Source: Mesaphorura yosii (Eukaryota > Arthropoda > Collembola > Poduromorpha > Tullbergiidae). From it: a stretch of 64,000 bases of DNA. Numbering within the stretch: position 1 is the stretch's first letter; the number at the start of each line of letters is the position of its first letter. A program made the translations under genes and the position numbers. The DNA is taken from positions 496,001 to 560,000 of the forward strand of contig WIXG01000001.1 of the NCBI GenBank assembly GCA_009869945.1. The letters are read 5' to 3'. Below are positions 2,233 through 53,567 of the stretch, piece by piece. The notes under the pieces were generated by a model that saw only the letters and a program-made list of their open reading frames with translations, made no database searches and was not told the DNA's origin.

Positions 2233-5021
2233 CTACAACGTGACCTTGTCAGAAGCTCCAGCCTGATCAGCTTCAACAACAGCTGCCGGTGAAGACACGG
2301 TATCGGCCACATCAGCAGGGGCTTCTGTTACCGCAACTGGAAGGGAAGGTTCCTCAAGCGCTGGCACTGAAACAACGCGGCCGATAGCCAACACACCAGC
2401 AGTGTCATCGACCAGATAAAATACGAATGGACGGTCCAAATTGATTCGTGTATTTGGCTTCTTGGTCCTGTACTTGGATACGCGGACTTTGTTTTTGGCG
2501 TCTAGAAGATATTGCGTACACTTTTAGCAAATTGAATTATGTTTCTGTTGTATGGTGCACGTTTACCTTCACTTCCTCTTAAGCTGACGCGCACATCTTG
2601 CACAATTCCATCCAGCAAAGCACCTCCAAGTCCTTCGAACTTCAATTCATCCCCACCGAGAACCTCTCTTACTTGAGGGTACACATCGGAGACGTAATGA
2701 ACGTCAAAGGCAGGGATTCTCAAGCGCACAAAGCGGTCAGCCATTTGACACAGCAATTTCGTGACGGAGAAGTCTTTGAGTCCTTCTTCGACAACGTGAA
2801 GTCCTGATTTCTCATTCGGAGAGAAGACGAGCAGGGACTGTGTTGGCTGCAACGAATCGACTCATACTGTCTGTTTGTCTCAAATCTTTTAAAGACCTTT
2901 TCATTTGTACTCACAGATACAAAAACTTGAATGGCTCTTGCGTCCCAATAGGGCAAGGAGACATAATTGATCCGTCCTATGTACTCGTAAAACGTAGAGT
3001 TGATTGAATCTCTCTCGTTTAGGAAAAATGTTTTGCGGAACCGTTTTGTCGATCGAAGTCTGGTTTCGAACGTGTAGTTATAAATTCCTTGGGTTCCTGC
3101 AATTATCAATTAATGCTTCGTGTGTTCTATCATCTCGAATATTGAAAGCTGTCTACACAGCCAAAGTCCGGCATATCTTACGCTCTTCTTCGGACGATTG
3201 AATCAAATTAGTTCCAAGCCCCGAAACTTGTTCCTGGAATGCACTCTCGATATTTCCGATAATGGTCGAACTGTTGCTCGACGTCCCGTTGAAGTACTGA
3301 ATATTATTGAACACTTCGAGGACCCCATCTCTCGAGTTGAGCGTCGAAAACAAGTGCTCTCGCACAGTTGGGCTTGCTCCAACCGCGTAGCTGGCCAGCA
3401 AATGTGCGAGCGAGACTGGAGAAATGGCGAAGCTGCCTTCTCCCGTGTTTCGGATGTGCTGGTACAAATTTCCACCGAGATCGTTGTAGTATCCGACAAA
3501 GTTCTTGGCGTTTTGGCTCAGCTTTGTGTCTACGTTATCAGACTTGAATCTGATTGGGAGAACGCTTTCGGTTGTCGGCAGCAAAACTTCGCCGTAATTC
3601 AAAACGCCGATTTCGGTATCGTAAAGCAGGAAGATGAAGGGATGATCCACGTAAAATCGAATGTCCTTCTTATTGACTCGAGTTCTTAAATGCTTGTACG
3701 AAGTTCGCTTGTGTTTCGATGCTCTGTTGTCAAATCCTGCGTACGTGAGCCGGATTGATCCAGATTGCAAGATTGTGACTGCTGACTTGGGTTGGAGAAC
3801 AAGCTGCGGCACAAACAAGACACAGTTGACAAATTACATAATAATAACAATTCCAACCGATTTCACTTTCATTGCATTGCTGTAAACCGGTTCTCCACCG
3901 GCATATCGCACAACTCGCGTCAGCAAGACGACAAATCACATACCTGTGAATCGATATCAAGCTTTGGGAGCAGCAACTGCGTTCTGACAGTCTTCAATCT
4001 CTGAATGATATTTCCAACTTTAACCTTTCCAAACTGTTCGCTCACTTCGGGCAGTCCCGAGTAATTGTTGGGAAGGACAATCAGAAAGAATGTCGTTGAT
4101 GTCTAAGAACGACGAAATATGAGTGCTAATTTTAAGTGTGGAAATGAAGATGGGCTAAACAACTTACGTTCCTCAGGGGCAATGCGAGCAAGCGTGCATC
4201 AACTCCTTCAATTTCACCGTACTTGAAGAATCCGATGTTGGTCATGTATTTTGTCTTCACGGCATTTGTCTCGTTGAGATAGAATCGGGACTTCGGAGCA
4301 TACCGGAATGGTGTCTCCCAAACTCCTCGCAGCAGCAGAGTCGTAAGGTACACTTGGTCGGTGGCGCTGAATGCTGCAGATTTAATGTAAAGGTAAGCTC
4401 CAAGCCGAAGTTAACGAAACGAAAGCCAATCTGATCTTACACTCTGGAAGGAAACCTTCCGGCACCTCGGACCCAATGGCTTTCTTGTAAGTGGCAGCCA
4501 GTTTCAGGTTGAGCTGAGCTTGATCAGCCACCGGTGGAATCACACTGACTCCATAATTCTGTGCAACTTCACTCACGGATTCGGCAGTCGTGTTGTCGAG
4601 ATAGTAAACTGCGCTCAGGCGCTTTACGCGGATTCCCTCAATCTCCTGCTTTATAATGCAACGGTTAACTTGCGATCTGCGAATAACTTCAGCTTGACAC
4701 TCCAGGGACTTACTTCAAGGTATACGAGGGACTTCTTGAACAAATCTTGCAGTGACAGATCACCATTCACAAGTGGAAGAACGTTGGCGACGGAGTAAGG
4801 GGACCACACGACTTGATTTCCATCGACTATCATTGCTTGAGCCAGTTCCGCACCTTGAGAATGAATCGTCTCGATGAAATCCGGCACTGGTGCTTCCGCT
4901 GCGACCAGCAGTGGAACCAGCAATATTATTAGTAAGTCTGGAAGAAGTAGATCGCCGATTAATTAGACTACTAACTAAAGACAAAAACGCTCTTTCTGTG
5001 AGGTTACTTCTGACCTTTCAT
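2233..5021 (-). CDS. secreted tandem (two-domain) serpin
   Basis: Nine-exon model, all phases consistent: 5015-5021 (ATGAAAG), 4714-4937, 4441-4645, 4168-4373, 3944-4102, 3182-3803, 2915-3096, 2567-2846, 2233-2501; 717 aa. The N-terminus MKDLLIILLVPLLVAAEAP is a signal peptide. Domain 1 (about 19-341) has the helix-A/B WSPYSVANVLP block, strand motifs FYLN..V.T.YM..IGFFKYGEI and the C-terminal DHPFIFLLYD...G.V signature. Domain 2 (about 360-672) repeats the plan with FAISPVSLAHLL, FFLNERDSIN and DRPFVFYLVDD..GVLAIGRV. Neither domain shows the inhibitory hinge (E-E-G-T-E-A-A-A). Between the sheet-B strands and DHPF/DRPF both carry short Lys/Arg-rich segments (about 292-313 and 631-647). A Pro/Ala/Val/Glu-rich tail of about 45 residues follows domain 2. 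Likely extracellular and non-inhibitory. The 7-nt first exon is the least certain part. Confidence 0.85.
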
Positions 5022-5717: not shown

Positions 5718-7640
5718 TTAATTAGGCTTAGCGAAGTCGAATGTGAAGAACACCAAAACTGCCAATATGAACATTTGTGGTGTACCAGGGTCGAATCTTT
5801 CTCCGGAACTCGATGTAATCTTCTCGCAGCGTCCTTCAACATTCTGGAAGCCGTCCAAACATTTGCAGCGACCAATTTCATTGGTAGCGAACTCAATCTT
5901 TTGGCAGGTGGCATTACCCACGCAATTCAATTTCCTGTCGCCAATTTCGGCGGTGTAGCAATGGGATTCAGCGTGACTAACGCATTTCCCAGTCTCCTTG
6001 TTCAAGGTCATTGAGTTCGGGCTTTCGCAGCCACACTTCTCGTTGACCACATCGCAGAGCAAGAAGTCGAATGGGTTGCATCTGTTCGGCCCAGTGCAGT
6101 AATTGCCATAAGAAAGAAGGCATCTGTTATGAGGAGCTGGCGTGGCCGAGTAGCCTTCTCTGCATTGGCATTTCTTATCAGCCTGACGGCACTCAGCCAG
6201 TTCAAAGCAGTCAGAGTTCCTCGCACAAGTCGTGCCGACATAACCGACGCATTTTCTGGAGTCTGAACTGTACACGAAGTTCTGCATGCAATCGCATTTA
6301 CGATCTGTGGTAGTGCAGTTCAGATTATTGTCCCCGTCGCATAGATCGCTTGGTAAGTTGCAGTCGGCGCGGTACCCTCCAGCGCATTGTCCGCTAGAAG
6401 TCTGAATGAAATCTGCCTCGCATCTGCATTCCTTGTAACGTTCTGAGCACACAGCTCGCTCGACGCAAAACGCAGCTCCGGAGTTGGCTGATGACGGAGA
6501 ACACGGTTTTCCGGCGAGAATGGCACAGATCTGGAAGCGATCGTCGTACACGGTTCGATTCTTGTTGCAGAGACATTTAGTCACAGTTGCAGCCTGCGGA
6601 ATTTCCGCTTTCCTCTGCCCCTTTGACTTTGATCCGGTCGCGGTCGTGGTTGCATTCGTTGGAAGGCACTCGTAGTAAGGATGGCATTGGTCGCCACTTT
6701 CAGCATCACAAACCTGCTCGTAGTTCAGCAGGCAACGTTTGTCAGGCGTCTCTTTGAATGTGCTGTTCTTGCACTCACAACGGTTCGTCGAATTGTTGCA
6801 TACAGCGTTTTGAACGCACGGTCTCTTCACAAAAGCGTTGACGCCGTCGTTACAAAGACCTTTATCAGAATTAAGAGACAATTAAGTCCTACCACATGTG
6901 TTATTCAAAAGTGCATTGTATTTTATTACCTCCAACCAATGACAAGCACTTTGACTGGATTGGGTCCCAAACTTGGCTCTCCTGTCGGTCGCACTCGCAT
7001 CTGCCATTCTGGCAACTCAACAAGGCGTTTGTATTGCAATCTTCCGTTCGAGCACACTCTAAACCCGGTCCCGGGCGGCATGACTTATTTCCAGGAGTGG
7101 GCAGATACAGTTGTGCGCACTCACAAATCGCGCTTGTGGTATTATTCGCGTCGTCTGGAGCAATGCATACGGCATTTTCAATGCATCCTCGAATCGGACT
7201 GCCCGGATACGACTCGACGAAGTTACATGGCTGCCCGACTACTGAGACGCATGTCTTCCTGTCCTTCCCGAGCACCATGCCAGATTTACACACACAGTTT
7301 GAACCATCGCACTCCAGCCAGGCAGTTGCGTTGCAGGTTTGGGTATCGGCTCTAGTGCCAGTGGTGGGAGTTCCTTGTCCAGGTTGAGCTCCAGCTCCAG
7401 CTCCTGCGGCTGCTCCACCTGCGGCTGCAGCTGGTGATGTCTGAGTTGGAGGATTTTGGCAAGCGTCGCCGTACTCTAGGCTTGATACCACTGTGGTACC
7501 ACACATGACCAAAGCCACCGCCACTGTAAGGTAGACGGAAGTCTTGACCTTTTGGAACACAATGACTTTGTTTTTTACAGAGCATAACACATATGAACTC
7601 ACAATCAATACCGACGACTCACCTGTGAAACGGATGCCAT
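5718..7640 (-). CDS. cysteine-rich EB/EGF-like surface protein
   Basis: Three exons: 7623-7640, 6930-7548 and 5718-6859 (phases 0 and 1); 592 aa. MASVSQ from exon 1 joins VKTSVYLTVAVALVMCG to give a signal peptide. A Pro/Ala/Gly-rich linker (about 38-67) precedes many repeats with spacing like C-x(4-6)-C...C.C...C, for example CQNGRCECD, CECKNSTF and CKCLDGF, typical of arthropod EB modules and EGF-like repeats. The C-terminus (GTPQMFILAVLVFFTF then a few residues) is a single hydrophobic stretch preceded by small residues, so the protein is either GPI-anchored or ends in a short transmembrane helix. Function is not known to me; extracellular binding or adhesion is the usual guess for this architecture. 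The exon-3 acceptor (GATAAAG) is weak. Confidence 0.75.
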
Positions 7641-8677
7641 TCTATGAAATATTTCCAGAAACGCCTTTGGCACTCGACCTGCTTCACTTGAATTCTTACG
7701 GTTTCTGGTTGAATTTTTTTTGCGTGGTTGGGGCAGGTCCAAACTCGAGTTGAACAAAAACCAAATTAAGAAAATACAGTTTTTGATTGAGATTATCCAA
7801 ATTCACTTGGTACGTTGCTCAAGAGCTCGGATACTGTTCCGGAGGAATGTAGTACAGGAGTCCATACAAATAAAAGCACAGAGTGTTCTGAATGCTGACA
7901 ATGATAAGTAAAAGTTCACAGTTCGATTACGTTAGTGATTATTGATTCTGATTTGGAAGCACTTAATCCCAAGTAAAACGAAGAAAATCCCTTGATATAT
8001 AATTTATAGTATCAAAGACTGATAGCACAGGACGTCAGAGAACAGAGAGCATCCGAATGGAATGATGCGACAAAATGAGGCAGGCATTCGTTCGTGCATT
8101 GTGTATGCTGACATTAAGTCGACATTTATGACGTTAAAGCAATAATACGTACTCGAGTTGGGTGCTGAAACTGGAATTTGTAATGTGTATGCGGGTTGAT
8201 TTCAATAATAATGTCAATCGAACGACTTGCGTGGCTGTATTGGCATTTGGCTGACAGACTTCATTTATCTGTTTGACACAATTTCTCCATGTTCGCATTG
8301 CGGCTGAGCTAAACGTTATTTTGCGAGAATTACGACCAACCTTGTATTAATACGTACAACTATTCAACACTTTCGTGGAGTTCGATGCATAAAATTAACC
8401 ACCTATTGTTAGTCCATGAATACCTCGCCATACTTTAGTCTATTAGTCATTCAATTCACTTCCAGGCAAAGAATGGGTAAACAGTTTTAAAACCTGCCTT
8501 TCGCAACTGTGACTGTGACCTTGATAATGGTTTTAACATTGCGTTCAAGCTGACAAGTCTGTGGTTTGGAATTGACACTGACTGTTAGAACACAGATTAT
8601 TAATCATTACGCATGTACTTCATGGATGAATTAACTTGGAGCATTTATTAATTACTGTTGGCTCATTAGCACAAGAT
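7641..8677. other. intergenic region, about 1 kb
   Basis: AT-rich. It should contain the promoter of the EB-module gene (minus) and the 3' UTR of the TMEM272-like gene (minus). I found no conserved coding segment and no repeat. Confidence 0.4.
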
Positions 8678-32060: not shown

Positions 32061-34250
32061 ATGAGTATAATTTTGGTCGCAATCATTTTGATTGTAATTT
32101 TTACCTGTCAAAGTGCTGCCAATTCAGGGTGCTTTCTGTTACCTCCAGGCACGAAGAGCAAGGACATTGTCGTCATGTCTGGTCATGACCCATCATCAAG
32201 TAAGAAAAATATTTTCAAATATGAAATCACTGAATGAGTAAAAAAAATTGATTATCTGAGTTTATTCTGAGGAGCTATAAAGGCGGATTTCCTCCATGGG
32301 CAGTGCGTGGAGCATAACTTGGCCGCATGGCGAAATTTATCTCTGAAGTCGCAAGAATCGCCTATTTTGGTCTTTATTCTGCCCGAATCAATACAAGAAC
32401 TTGTCGCAAATCTCTATCAAATTGGCCAATTATTGAAATTGGATGAAAATTCTATATCAGAATTCTGGAATCCTATGTTCTTTGTTTTCTGGTCAAGTCA
32501 AACCGGAGGCAGTGCTGGAAAAAATGCGATATCGCCAACATTTACAACTGCCGCGGATGTGGAAGCCTATCTACGGATTCATTTGCTCACAGAAATTCGT
32601 CTTGACGGTGACGTCTTTTTAATCTTTCCTTCACTAGTAAACATGTCATCAACGCACAGAACCAGAAGAGACATCTCATCCTATGAAATTTTCACCTCAT
32701 TTGACAAAACGTTGCAAATCCGACCACTTCATCTTCAGGAGAACAATGCATTTGAAGCCTACTTGATTAAGTCCGTGCGGAGGCAAAATTTGCAAGGAGC
32801 AGTGCTGAAGGTGGTTGGATTGGTACGTGAATTACGTAATGTAAATACATCTGCAACTGCTTCCACTAATTCTTTAATTTGTAGAAGGATCCAGATTTCA
32901 TTGATCAGTGCAATCTTGAAATTGTAAACGGTGCTGTTATTTTTGTCGATGGACTTGGAGTGGAGCTTCTGTTTGCATTGCAACACGCCATGAACTTTAG
33001 GTAATTAAAATCGTAATATTCAAAGCCCATCTCCAAAAGTTAAGTACTGACTAATTGCAGTTATTTTGGAGTGCAAGGCGAAGGCTGGATCGAGCAACTC
33101 GAAAATGGCTCCTGGACCGGAATGGCAAGGCAGGTTCGGGCTGGTGAGGCTGATCTCTCAATCAGCCTCTCCTCTCATCTCTTGTACAGATTTAAAGGAA
33201 TCGGTTTTCTGCATCCGATCGGCATGAGTCGAATATGCGTGTTCTTTCGGCAGCCACCTGTCAGCTCCATGCGGGACATTTTTCTGTCACCATTTAAAGC
33301 CAAAGTTTGGGCCTTGCTTGGCGTGCTTTGGCTCTTGTTCACATCGAGCATGTGGGCTATGTATTGGTTTCAAATTCGGCACGGCCATCACACGTCCTCA
33401 GATGGATACATGCAAGGAGAAAAGTTTTTTTGGTGCTTGAGGACTTTCTGTCAAAAGAGTGCTCACGTTTGTCCACAAACAACTTCCCTACGCGTAGTTT
33501 TCATCTGCAGTTTGTTTGTTGGTGGAATTTATTACGTCGCGTACTGCGCTTCGCTTGTCTCAACCTTATCCGTTGAGCCGGTTCCAATCAAGACAGTGGA
33601 GGAGCTCGCCCAGAGCGAGCTTGTCATCTTGGGAGACTTATGGCTGCCAAACAACCGCGAAATTGTACAGTCCATCGAAGACGGGCGGTCGAGCCCACAA
33701 ACTTCCGCGACAGAAGACGAAGAGCGGTACATAGTCATTGACAACGCAATTCAAAAGCTGCTTTCTTCCCCGACAGCCTTCGTGACCTTCGCAGATGGTT
33801 TCATGACAGCTTTCCATCGCCTCAATTACTCTGACCGATATTTCTGCGATACGTTTAGTGCAATCAATCCGAGCAAGGCTCCAATGTCTAGTGGCATGTT
33901 TGTCCAGCGCGGCTCGCCTCTCAAGGAGCTGATAAATCCAAAGTGCGTGTTTTCGTCAATTACTTTCAAGGTCTGAAGCACTTGATACTGATTGAGTAGT
34001 TATCATATTCTGTAGGATTTTAATGATGTGGGAGCGTGGAATCAATACGCGGGTGAACCAAAACTACATGATTCAGACGTCAGCGCAGTGCACGGAGAGG
34101 ACGAGGCTACGACAAAGCTTGCAAGCGTCGGACATGTTCACGGCGTACTTCCTAATTGGCGGCGGACTGCTGACCAGCTTGGCGCTGAGTGGCCTAGAAC
34201 ACTTTACATTTCAATGCGCGAAGAGAATTTCGAGCAGACGAGAAATATAA
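32061..34250 (+). CDS. divergent ionotropic receptor (IR) 1
   Basis: Five exons: 32061-32199, 32272-32822, 32885-33000, 33061-33942, 34016-34250; 640 aa, phases 1,0,2,2. The signal peptide is MSIILVAIILIVIFTCQSA. The C-terminal half has the ligand-binding lobe and channel of an ionotropic-glutamate-receptor-like IR: SISLSSHLLYRFKGIGFLHP, then RQPPVSSMRDIFLSPF leading into M1 (VWALLGVLWLLFTSSMWAMY), a pore region with CLRTFCQKS, M3 (SLRVVFICSLFVGGIYYVAY), an extracellular lobe ending in ILMMWERGI, and M4 (AYFLIGGGLLTSLALSGLEH). The glutamate-binding Arg/Thr are not evident, as in divergent IRs. It would serve as a chemosensory channel subunit. IR2 lies 548 bp downstream on the same strand. The exon-2 acceptor (TTCTGAG) is weak. 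Confidence 0.85.
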
Positions 34251-47978: not shown

Positions 47979-50450
47979 TTAAGCTTGGAGTTTGGCGAGC
48001 GTAGAGCTCTTAATGAAGTACGGCAACACAGTCAGCGAAGCTGGATAGTTAGTAAAAGTGCCAGGACCAAAGTACCGAACACCGTTCCTATCAACCCATT
48101 CTCCGCGTGGGAAATAAATGTTTCGAGACACTGCACCTTCTTCCACGACGGGCGCAACGAGTATGTCGTCCCCAAGCATATATTCTGAAAGCAAAAGAAA
48201 TAGCAGCAACAGCCACCGAATTCAAATTTCATCAGAGATAAAGATAGCTTACGGTCGTCAATTGTATAAGTGTTAGCGTCATCTGGGTCTTCCCACCAAA
48301 TTGGACGATTGATCGGACTCCCGTCGACCAGCGCCTGATCAACTGCCTTGTAAATCAGGTCCTGATACCGTTCTCGGAGAGCAAGCACGTCCTTGCAAAT
48401 TTGCACTGTCTAAATGGCATTAATAAGAGTAGGAGTGATTAAGTCGACAAGGCACTAACGTCCACTTCATCATTTGCTACGTACTTCAGCGTCGTAATCC
48501 CACGGTACAAGTGAAAATTGGACGGCAGGCATGAAAGCATTCGCTTGCATCCATCTTATGTACAGTTCTTTATTTGGTCGACCGCCGTATGCGTTGCCAC
48601 CAATCATATCGGGAAGGACGAATGGGTAGCCAAGAACACCGAAAAGGAGCAGTGTCGGAATCAGAGACTTCAATCCGTTGTCGTATCCCCATCTTGAGTC
48701 CTTGTCCAGCATGCGGGTGAAAATCGGTTCTCTCTTTTCATGGTTCATAACATTCATGATTATTCGTATTTATTCGAAAAAGCGAGGAGAAAGAGAAGTA
48801 TTTTACCTGATTTCTTCTCCCTGTTCGCACTTCCAGCATGCCTCCGAACGAGACAAGCGCCTCAACGTACTTTGTCGAGTACAAATTGGGTTCAAGCGCT
48901 GCGTCACCGGTTAGTCGGAATGACCGTGGCAGATAACCCGTTTCTCCTGCATCAAACTTGAAGGAATCGATGTTATATAGGGCCTGAAGTGCCTCCAACC
49001 GCGCCTTCCACCATGCAGTTGCAGCTTCATTTGTGTAATCAATTATACCGGCAACGCTTCCTTGCCACCAGTCCGTCATTGCAGGCATGCCTTTCTCGTC
49101 GTTGACAAAGAATCGGTTCTCGATTGCAGTTTGGAATGACGGACAATCTTAAATTGAAAAGTTCAACCTGAAGCATGTGTGAGCAATATACTGTGGAGTT
49201 TGTAGTTGGGACTTACTGAAATTGATGAAAGGGTGAATCCAAAGCGTGACCTTCAAGTCAAGGTCGTTTAATGTTTGCACCATTTGTGTCACGTCGGGAA
49301 ATTTCTGCGTATTGAACTGCGCTTCACCGTAGCAGTTTTCCCAGTCATCGTCGATTTCAATATGAGAATTGTTTACGAAGCCTTCACTTTTCAACCTCTG
49401 CGCATACTCAATAACACGAGTTTGGTCGACGCCCGTGTGATATTGGGCCCAAGTGGACCAGAAAGGATGCAGCAGCATTGTACGATCAGGAGCACCGCTT
49501 GGCGGGACTGGGTAATATTTCTTCAGTGACCGTTCATGCGCATCCTTCAGGTTCGCCCCGGTGCAAAATGTGTACTTGAGTTCGAGCACGTCCCTTTTCT
49601 TGTACGGGTGCTTGTCTTGAGCGGATAGACAGACCTGATTCGCGTGCTTGGTTCCCCAACCTGTGCCAATCAAGCAGATTGTAATCGTAGTTATCACAGG
49701 CCTAAATTAGATGCGTGAAGCCGATGCCCAGTTTAAGCGTACTTGTGAAAAGAGGAACATCTTCATCCACGATAAGCGCGACTCCAGACGATATTACCCA
49801 GTAATTTTCCACCAGGCTATCCCAACTCCACCCAGTTACCATTGGAGCCTCCTCTCGTGTGACCTCTTCAATTGGCCAAGTCTGATACCAAGTCTCTGTG
49901 CCGCCGTACCTGATAGCATTAATTTAGAATTTGCAGAGTAATTCAAGAAAATGTTGGAAAATGAAGGTAAGGTAAGTTTGTTGGTAAGTACCAATGAGAG
50001 TCGAGGTCAAAGCAGTCCTCGAGTTTCCTGGCTTGCGTGGATGTCCAAACGAGGCGGACACAGCGGTCGGCGTCTTCCACTATTTGAAGCTTTGCGTAGT
50101 CTCCGTAGCTGCGACACGCCTCGTACCCTGCATCGGGAACGCAGGCTTCAGACTGTCCAACGGACGATGGAGCGGACATTCCAAGATTGCCCCGCAACAG
50201 AACCCGACCTTAGAAAAGCCGTGCAAGGGCGTCATTTCACTGGCGGCTATTAACTTCTCGTAAACATTTGCTTACCATCTTCTGCATAAACTTCAAGAGG
50301 TATTGCATTGTCAGACTCTCTTGTGGTTAGCTTGACGATCTTGGCGATTGTATCGTCACCGACTTCACTTGGACTATTCTTGAAAGAACAGACCGTAGAG
50401 CTCAGCATCAGCAGGCTGCACCAGAAAATGAGAATCTTCATTCTCCCCAT
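47979..50450 (-). CDS. secreted GH31 glycosidase A (MYORG-like)
   Basis: Eight exons: 50276-50450, 49992-50208, 49743-49909, 49217-49660, 48807-49147, 48485-48733, 48253-48409, 47979-48184; 651 aa, consistent phases. [22 protein letters not shown] is a signal peptide. An N-terminal beta domain ([12 protein letters not shown]) precedes the GH31 barrel: [42 protein letters not shown] with the nucleophile Asp400, then [10 protein letters not shown] with candidate acid/base Asp458 or Asp460, and [14 protein letters not shown]. The set matches myogenesis-regulating glycosidase (MYORG/KIAA1161) homologues, a family with alpha-galactosidase activity. Unlike vertebrate MYORG it has a cleavable-looking signal rather than a type II anchor, so it may be a gut or extracellular enzyme. 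Tandem duplicate of gene B; one intron (49910-49991) is absent from gene B. Confidence 0.9.
49276..49385 (-). repeat. 110-bp identical tract shared by the GH31 genes (copy A)
   Basis: Base-for-base identical to 52399-52508 (offset 3123). It lies inside exon 4 and encodes the segment around [13 protein letters not shown]. Sequence on both sides is clearly diverged. Confidence 0.95.
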
Positions 50451-51066: not shown

Positions 51067-53567
51067 TTAATCTTTGGTAAGTTTTGCAAGCGTGCTGCTC
51101 TTGATGAAATACGGCAAAGTTCTCAGTGGAGCTGAGTAATCGGTCAAGGTGGCGGGGCCAATATGCGTCGTTCCATCGGGACCAACCCAGCTACCACGTG
51201 GCAGGTAAATATTGCGCGTGGTGGCGTTTTCGACTACGACCGGTGCAACGATAATATCTTCTCCGAGCATGTACTCTGAAAATTATAGCAGACACAGAGA
51301 CACAATGATCAATTTTTCGTCTTTGCTTCGTAACGACAACGCAGAGGAGGAATCTGCAGATCGCAAACACTCACGATCATCAATTGTGTACGTTGCAACG
51401 TCGTTGGGGTCTTCCCACCACATCGGACGGTTGATTGGGGTGCCATCGACCAGCGCCTGGTCAACGGCCTTGTAAATCAAGTCTTGGTACCTTATACGCA
51501 AGGCCAGAACCTCCAGACACACTTGCACTACCTGAAATGTTCAAATGCGGCATTGAGGGTTGTTGATAAGGGAAAGGATCTAGGAAGCAACCTGTTCTTA
51601 GATGCATTGCGGCATGATACTTACTTCCGCGTCGTAGTCCCACGGTACAATCGAGAATTGGACGGAGGGCATGAAGGAATTGGCCTGCATCCACCTGATG
51701 TACAGTTGTTTGTCAGGACGATTACCATAAGCGTTGCCACCAATCATGTCGGGAAGGACGAAGGGATATCCAATAAGACCAAAGTGAAGCAGGGTTGGGA
51801 TCAGAGAAGCAAGGCCATTGTCATGAAGCCACTTTGAGTCTTTGTCGAGCATTCTAGTGAAAATTGGCTCCCTCTGCAGAAACGAAAATAAATGTCAAAG
51901 GGAAGTACTGGAAAGAAATTCACCCAATTTCGATTTGTACCTGATTCCGTCTACCAGCTCTAACTTCCAGCATACCTCCAAACGATACCAGAGATTCCAC
52001 GTATTTGGTAGTGTACAAATTGGGTTCAAGGGCTTCGTCACCGTTCAGGCGGGTTGAATGTGGTAGCCAATTTGTCTCACCAGCATCGAACTTGAATGAA
52101 TCAATATTATACTGCGACTGAAGCCCCTCCAGGCGTGCCTTCCACCAAGTTACGGCTGCCTCATTTGTGAAGTCAATGATTCCACTCGGATTTCCTTGCC
52201 ACCAGGATGTCATTCCGGGCTTGCTTTTCTCATCCTTCACAAAGTAGGAGTTTGTGATGGCAGTTTGGAAGGATGGACAGTCTAAAATATGAATTTCAGT
52301 TAATAAGTCTTCGTTGGAATGTATAAATGTGTGCCCTACTGAAGTTAATGAAGGGATGAATCCAGAGTGTAACTTTCAGGTTTAGAGCGTTCAATCTCTG
52401 CACCATTTGTGTCACGTCGGGAAATTTCTGCGTATTGAACTGCGCTTCACCGTAGCAGTTTTCCCAGTCATCGTCGATTTCAATATGAGAATTGTTTACG
52501 AAGCCTTCGCTGATTAGTCTTTCAGCGTACTCGATGACGAGACTTTGATTGACAGCTACGTGATACTGTGCCCAGGTCGACCAGAAAGGATAAAGCAGCA
52601 TCGCACGGTCTGGAGGACCGCTTGGCGGAACCGGGTAGTATTTAGGAAGCGTCTTCTGGTGAACGTCTTTCAGATTCTCTCCCGTGCAAATGTCGTACTT
52701 CAGTTCCAAAGTCTCTCGCCGTTTGTAGGGATAAATATCTTGAGCAGACAGACAGACATGGTTGTCGTGCTTTGATTGCCAACCTAAGGTAAAAATAATG
52801 TACAGTCCATTTCGGCTGTCCCCTGGTGAAAATCATATACGAATGTGAAAGCATTCTAGCTTACTTATGAAGAGAGGTACATCTTCATCCGCCACGATCG
52901 ATACTCCGGTCGAGAGAAGCCAGTAATTCTCAGTTACTCCTCCATATTCCATTCCCGCCAGAGAATCACCAGTGACCATTGCCGCCTCGTTTCTCCAAAC
53001 CCCTTCAACAGGCCACGCTTGGTAGTACGTCTCGCCGCCACCATACCAATGGACGCCAGATTCCAGTAGGAAACAGTCCTCAATCTTCCGCGCAAATGTT
53101 GATTGCCAAACGAATCTGGTGCAGTTGTCGGTTCTTCGCACAAGTTGAAGCTTGGCGTAGTCTCCGTAATTGAAGCAATCAGTGAATCCAGCATCTGGAA
53201 TGCATGAGTCGACTTGGCCGACGGATGACGGGGCGCTCATGCCTAACGAGCCTCGGAGCAATGTTCGGCCTGGAATAGTAGCATCGAGTCTCAGTGTGTC
53301 TCATCTCATAGATAATTTTTCATAACAATTTTCTGTTTCATCCTGCCACCCCTACTTACCATCGACTCCGAAGACCTCCAGTGGTATTGCGTTATCACTC
53401 GCTTTAGCCGACCCGGGCGTCAGTCGGACATAACTAACATTGGCCTTCTTTCCAACTTGGTTGGCGGGTTTGTACTGGTTCACTGTAAAAGGGGTGCTTT
53501 TACTTCTGGACGAAGCGTAGGCGCAAGCCACGAGTAGAAAACACAAGAGTAGCTTCAGTGACTTCAT
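51067..53567 (-). CDS. secreted GH31 glycosidase B (MYORG-like)
   Basis: Seven exons: 53360-53567, 52865-53269, 52340-52783, 51941-52281, 51625-51873, 51375-51531, 51067-51275; 670 aa, consistent phases. MKSLKLLLCFLLVACAYASS is a clear signal peptide. The domain plan equals gene [44 protein letters not shown] (nucleophile Asp418), [10 protein letters not shown] (candidate acid/base Asp476 or Asp478), [14 protein letters not shown]. Exon 2 is unsplit, where gene A has an intron. The N-terminal region is 12 residues longer and Lys-rich. Likely a hydrolase of alpha-galactoside or related sugars outside the cell. A TATA-like ATAAAA and a TCAGTT initiator lie upstream, suggesting strong, regulated expression. 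Confidence 0.91.
52399..52508 (-). repeat. 110-bp identical tract shared by the GH31 genes (copy B)
   Basis: Partner of 49276-49385. Lies in exon 3 of gene B. Identity stops abruptly at both ends. Confidence 0.95.

Follow-up and report, generated by a model that had tools for sequence, protein, structure and literature searches.

The window, a 64,000-nucleotide stretch of DNA from the collembolan Mesaphorura yosii, carries on its minus strand a nine-exon gene for a secreted-type chain with two serpin domains (Table 1). In our splice model all eight introns are GT-AG, measure 77, 68, 67, 65, 140, 85, 68 and 65 nt, and include none with a length divisible by three. A first-pass annotation of the same DNA had given the same coordinates, strand, nine exons and 622-nt exon, and the splice model bears these out. 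GC content at third codon positions (GC3) is 0.52 in the coding region, versus a GC of 0.39 in the introns. The 717-residue chain has eight N-glycosylation sequons, one Cys, and Met solely at residues 1, 38, 189 and 570. Its start was judged by eye to resemble a signal peptide. The C-terminal tail, a feature absent from the first-pass annotation, contains 8 acidic residues and 1 basic residue.

Table 1. Features of the two-domain serpin gene, in window positions
Feature	Position	Strand	Basis
Whole coding region of the two-domain serpin gene	2233..5021	-	Splice model, 9 exons, 717 codons plus stop
Nine exons	5021-5015, 4937-4714, 4645-4441, 4373-4168, 4102-3944, 3803-3182, 3096-2915, 2846-2567, 2501-2233	-	Splice model
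First coding exon, 7 nt (5021-5015), plus start of exon 2: signal-peptide-like MKDLLIILLVPLLVAAEA	4891..5021	-	By eye
Serpin domain 1, residues 19-343, exons 2-6	3576..4890	-	Pfam, PDB matches, alignment
Domain 1 loop at the reactive-centre position, residues 290-318, 10 Lys/Arg of 29	3651..3737	-	
Exon 6, 622 nt: end of domain 1, linker (~25 residues) and start of domain 2 in one frame	3182..3803	-	Splice model
Inter-domain linker, residues 344-368, limits approximate	3501..3575	-	Splice model, alignment
Serpin domain 2, residues 369-672, exons 6-9, ~50 residues short before s1B	2371..3500	-	Pfam, PDB matches, alignment
Domain 2 loop, first part (GSE; end of exon 8)	2567..2576	-	
Domain 2 loop, remainder (exon 9); whole loop residues 626-649, 8 Lys/Arg of 24	2440..2501	-	
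Acidic Ala/Pro/Val-rich C-terminal tail, 45 residues (673-717)	2236..2370	-	Composition
AATAAA polyadenylation-type hexamer, ~45 nt past the stop codon	2182..2187	-	Read from sequence

Serpin homology was evident in each half of the chain. The Pfam Serpin profile (PF00079) matched the whole chain at 5.3e-36, residues 1-343 at 2.1e-19 (70.5 bits) and residues 344-717 at 2e-16 (60.6 bits), against a cut-off of 27 bits, and this homology rules out a chance origin of the 717-codon frame. Both domains contain the s4B-s5B motif D[HR]PF.F.L.D...GVL..G.V, which aligns with other serpins. Among the matches listed in three PDB searches (60 of 93, 15 of 15 and 60 of 147), all were serpins, either by name or, like ovalbumin, angiotensinogen and ICE inhibitor, as members of the family under other names. 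The arrangement proposed at first pass, two tandem serpin domains encoded by one gene, is thus supported by a profile match in each half.

We considered whether two genes had been wrongly joined and rejected this, as the junction falls within a single open, Met-less exon and no intron length is divisible by three. Exon 6 contains no in-frame stop, compared with 5 and 6 stops in the other two frames, and encodes no Met; in a simulation of 20000 first-order random sequences, 73 had an open reading frame of its size in at least one frame. The earlier argument that a linker lying inside this exon excludes a false gene join therefore stands. Met is absent between residues 190 and 569, so that domain 2 has its first Met only at residue 570, which makes separate production of domain 2 unlikely.

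The first-pass annotation was correct that serpins are normally single-domain, but twin-domain serpins have been published and are not rare in insects: the available text of PMC10513286, on an insect clade identified by homology to PpSerpin-1, reports multiple serpin domains (105 domains) in 45 of its 731 genes. Like the window gene, that clade shows duplication of domains within a gene; loss of the hinge in both domains is not described in that text. The closest published parallels in architecture are TmSPN93 of Tenebrio molitor and PpSPI3 of Pteromalus puparum, which, in the portion of PMC5691223 at hand, likewise have two tandem serpin domains in one chain (TmSPN93 appears also in the accessible part of PMC10629668). 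According to the same portion of PMC5691223, TmSPN93 was found in stable complexes with two proteases of the Toll cascade, and TmSPN93 and PpSPI3 have hinges and predicted P1 sites in both domains, whereas the window protein has two corrupted hinges and a truncated domain 2. The window protein therefore shares with TmSPN93 the two domains in one chain and lacks its pair of intact hinges.

To score the hinges we used a ten-position consensus as given in the available part of PMC2770083, and aligned the two domains to eight other serpins from this genome, which had been spliced by eye. Both domains retain the Gly at P15, and domain 2 has also preserved G-S-E-x-A. Domain 1 has F-D-N-R-A-S-K at P14-P8 and domain 2 has S-E-D-A-K-N-K there, compared with S-E-A-A-A-A-T at the loci C760 and C75; both loops carry charged residues within P12-P8. 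In register, domain 1 agrees with the consensus at 3/10 positions and domain 2 at 5/10. When the consensus was placed anywhere in the C-terminal stretch the best scores were 4 and 6, respectively, no better than chance (mean 4.4, maximum 7, in 500 shuffles of the last 110 residues of domain 1). The earlier statement that neither domain has a small-residue hinge holds for the charged P12-P8 stretch and the low scores, with the correction that the hinges, which keep P15 Gly, are corrupted rather than absent. Serpin homology without a small-residue hinge, the mark of a non-inhibitory serpin fold, is therefore what we find here.

An unannotated exon restoring a standard hinge had been named at first pass as a finding that would count against this description. 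No standard hinge motif was found by a pattern scan of the window's minus strand from 5100 to 1, and the xPF motifs on that stretch comprised the two known ones and a third, at 587, whose frame meets a stop and which does not resemble a serpin. A hidden hinge exon does not fit the gene itself either, with introns of 65-140 nt and none divisible by three, though mutually exclusive last exons might lie further downstream, beyond the window.

Eleven other serpin loci in the genome were read for the hinge, with the loop of a further one, C349, left out. The best-placed scores were 10 for C760, C75 and C63, 9 for C556 and C129, 8 for C262, 7 for C27 and 6 for C117 (7 once spliced by eye). Low scores were obtained for C465 (5), C805 (no more than 4) and C629 (4 as read, 2 when spliced by eye). 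Since these last three loci of the 11 look hinge-less, loss of the hinge as such is ordinary in this genome. It is also common in Drosophila, where 42% of serpins lack a hinge according to the accessible text of PMC2770083. Those Drosophila proteins resemble the window domains in lacking a small-residue hinge, but, Spn100A aside, that text describes neither a two-block structure for them nor basic loops.

Erosion extends beyond the hinge. In the alignment domain 2 lacks ~50 residues in the stretch from helix D to strand s1B, a deficit missed in the first-pass annotation, and its s3A stretch is polar where other serpins are hydrophobic. The gap falls mainly at s2A-hE-s1A by alignment, and a placement at hF/s3A is nearly as good by eye; the names of strands and helices rest on the alignment and on recall of the serpin fold, and exactly which element is lost depends on the alignment. 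The intron at this gap is 85 nt long, too short for a hidden exon plus two introns of usual size. Domain 1 is ~20 residues short around helices D/E and is also shortened before the loop. In neither domain does the alignment contain complete sheet A strands together with helices D-F.

These features suggest that neither domain is a suicide inhibitor. Neither is likely to inhibit proteases by the serpin mechanism, because the hinge residues are charged or bulky and domain 2 lacks part of sheet A or of helices E/F. A proximal hinge made of such residues would be unlikely to slip into beta-sheet A, and domain 2 is short by ~50 residues besides; insertion of its loop into sheet A appears unlikely regardless of the hinge. 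One or both domains might still inhibit proteases in a non-standard way, by binding without loop insertion, as basic residues in the loops would be available to a trypsin-like protease. We regard this as highly improbable given that both hinges contain charged or bulky residues and that domain 2 is missing sheet elements.

In both domains the segment at the reactive-centre position is rich in Lys and Arg, as the first-pass annotation had proposed. Lys/Arg make up 10/29 residues of loop 1 and 8/24 of loop 2, compared with 55/646 in the remaining mature chain (Fisher p 1.6e-4 and 8.6e-4, respectively). All 24 of the most positive segments listed (twelve of them 29 and twelve 24 residues long) lie at the two loops, with starts at residues 284-296 or 620-633. 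The net charge of the whole domains is only +3 for domain 1 and +1 for domain 2.

We made the same count in other serpins of the genome, using the xPF motif as an anchor. The 29 residues before it hold 10 Lys/Arg in each of the two window domains. In ten other loci, which supplied twelve strings (three of them under 29 residues long), the count was 0 to 6. The individual counts were 0 for C262, 2 for C805, 4 for C27, 3 for C129, 6 for C465, 1 for C556 and 3 for C629; 3, 4 (25 residues) and 4 for three exon-like pieces of C760; and 1 (20 residues) and 0 (24 residues) for the short pieces from C117 and C63. A C-terminal exon of C75, counted by eye on the open reading frame, has 6 Lys/Arg of 26. 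The window loops are thus the most basic of those read, and basic loops are not unique to them, occurring in milder form in C465 and C75. Given these two loci, part of the loop charge may be inherited or the product of drift.

Our preferred reading, which we hold tentatively on the strength of these sequence features, is that the protein may be a stable two-site scaffold whose basic loops dock onto acidic extracellular partners. The two loops at the reactive-centre position would provide two contact sites outside the cell; candidate partners include acidic proteins and the charged polymers found in extracellular matrix or cuticle, and the acidic C-terminal tail could possibly shield a loop. 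Of the first-pass proposal of a bivalent, non-inhibitory scaffold, the single secreted-type chain, the two domains and the corrupted hinges are found in the gene, while the scaffold role, with its suggested binding of acidic polymers or cutting at basic sites, is inferred. If correct, this would be a further case of the serpin fold kept as a plain scaffold, here twice per chain, and both copies would have acquired charge at one and the same loop site. It would also offer a concrete test of the nature of insect Spn100A.

The same loops could instead be protease bait, cut by trypsin-like or dibasic-specific proteases, with cleavage itself the function, as a decoy or as a step of release or activation. 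Both are Lys/Arg-rich where serpins present their bait; domain 1 has one Lys-Arg and one Lys-Lys pair and domain 2 one Lys-Lys pair, and C75, to which domain 1 is closest, combines an intact hinge with a fairly basic C-terminal exon. We nonetheless consider this possibility somewhat unlikely, as no cognate protease is known and the two loops differ in length from each other and from those of the genome's other serpins, so that no fixed scissile bond can be named.

The docking reading is weakened, and a rival based on decay strengthened, by the partly basic loops of C465 and C75. According to this rival, a former twin inhibitor of the TmSPN93 type has come under relaxed constraint and its loops have drifted without acquiring any special binding role. 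The published loops of non-inhibitory serpins are mostly weakly conserved, in the available text of PMC2770083. Both window domains sit on long branches (1.6-2.3 substitutions per site), domain 2 is truncated, there is no close paralog, and C465, with a damaged hinge (5/10) and stop codons, also reached a fairly basic loop. Set against decay are 717 codons that remain open across nine exons with eight canonical introns, and the arrival of both domains at the same strongly basic loop; we judge it unlikely.

A Pfam scan of the 93-Mb genome found 13 serpin loci, including that in the window, and among the matches listed none of the other 12 had the profile covered twice, though the same scan detects the window gene only at 7.9e-4 and other eroded copies could escape it. 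No close paralog of the twin serpin was found in the 93-Mb genome, the best match beyond its own exons being C760 at 8.9e-9. In BLAST comparisons among ten rows, domain 2 matched domain 1 best (52.8 bits) and then C760 (39.7), and domain 1 matched C75 (68.6 bits), C760 (57.0) and domain 2 (52.8). C75 and C760 (L028 and L030) are therefore the best matches of domain 1, and the C-terminal exon of C75 shares some of its basic character, but each has one serpin domain and a perfect 10/10 hinge.

A tree of eight rows and 353 columns, from which the partial rows C63 and C27 were omitted, as in the second tree, grouped the two window domains (SH-aLRT 88.3, bootstrap 85); once the loop end was removed, leaving 270 columns, they no longer grouped. 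An intron before 'LIVLPN' is common to both domains and seemingly present in C75 too, and is therefore uninformative on duplication versus fusion. With moderate confidence we prefer duplication within the gene, from a C75-like inhibitor, over fusion; the trees are indecisive.

Several of these loci have features of their own. At C760:10500-15500 (G000, L030, minus strand), a canonical, inhibitor-like serpin with the hinge EEGSEAAAAT precedes at least three distinct C-terminal exon-like pieces that carry xPF motifs, a layout that resembles serpin genes in which the reactive loop is swapped by alternative splicing. The serpin match at C465:36000-40500 (G000, L026) contains 2 TGA, 1 TAG and 1 TAA in frame, marking either a pseudogene or introns that were read through. 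At C556 (G000, L003/L032), a Pro-rich stretch of ~250 residues precedes the serpin match in the same open frame.

Among described proteins, Spn100A of insects invites comparison. The available portion of PMC2770083 describes it as a serpin-derived protein, secreted, with a signal peptide, 653 residues long and on the non-inhibitory list, with serpin homology in its N-terminal 44 and C-terminal 235 residues; the 294 residues in the middle are read there as a novel insertion, some hinge residues are kept, and orthologs are given only from insects. Bombyx serpin-10 and serpin-11 are its homologs according to the accessible text of a butterfly paper (PMC3654919). Compared by description, Spn100A resembles the 717-residue window protein in secretion, large size and two serpin-homology blocks, and differs from it in the middle part, the 294-residue insertion. 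The window gene could be an ortholog of Spn100A, which would be compatible with either docking or bait. The similar size and arrangement, secretion, paired homology blocks and non-inhibitory listing speak for orthology, but the novel insertion, the hinge residues kept and the insect-only orthologs in the same source make it quite unlikely. In the part of a grainy head study (PMC3348937) available to us, Spn100A appears at -5.39-fold in a table of misregulated genes; this hints at a role in the epidermal barrier, which would concern the window gene only if it is kin to Spn100A.

A broader conjecture, which we hold to be very doubtful, is that an old arthropod group of twin serpins uses both loops as polycationic docking arms, with Spn100A a more eroded member whose 'insertion' would be a diverged domain 1 end plus domain 2 start.

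A search of titles and abstract openings in the open-licence literature found no twin serpin with both hinges lost, and a search for serpins in Collembola listed nothing on topic. Searches at set term counts on atypical mosquito serpins and on Bombyx serpin-10/11 returned no paper. Twin domains and hinge loss are each already known, and it is their combination that is new; as it stands the locus is a modest addition, both twin and hinge-less serpins being documented in insects.

The NCBIfam search gave no match. The odorant receptor profile had no match in the genome, and the control genomes were unmatched too, so absence is not established; cuticle proteins gave 66 matches and gustatory receptors 61. 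This gene content points to an arthropod, perhaps other than a winged insect, and would suit a springtail or a crustacean. Elsewhere in the window, plus-strand open reading frames overlap 484-1222, and the neighbour on the minus strand at 5718-7641 is a Cys-rich, EGF-like-looking gene with two long open reading frames and no Pfam match at 0.01. At 33044-33973 on the plus strand lies an ionotropic-receptor-like open reading frame (Lig_chan 2.2e-8). Similar glycosyl hydrolase family 31 open reading frames at 49152-49706 and 52299-52832 on the minus strand are apparently neighbouring copies.
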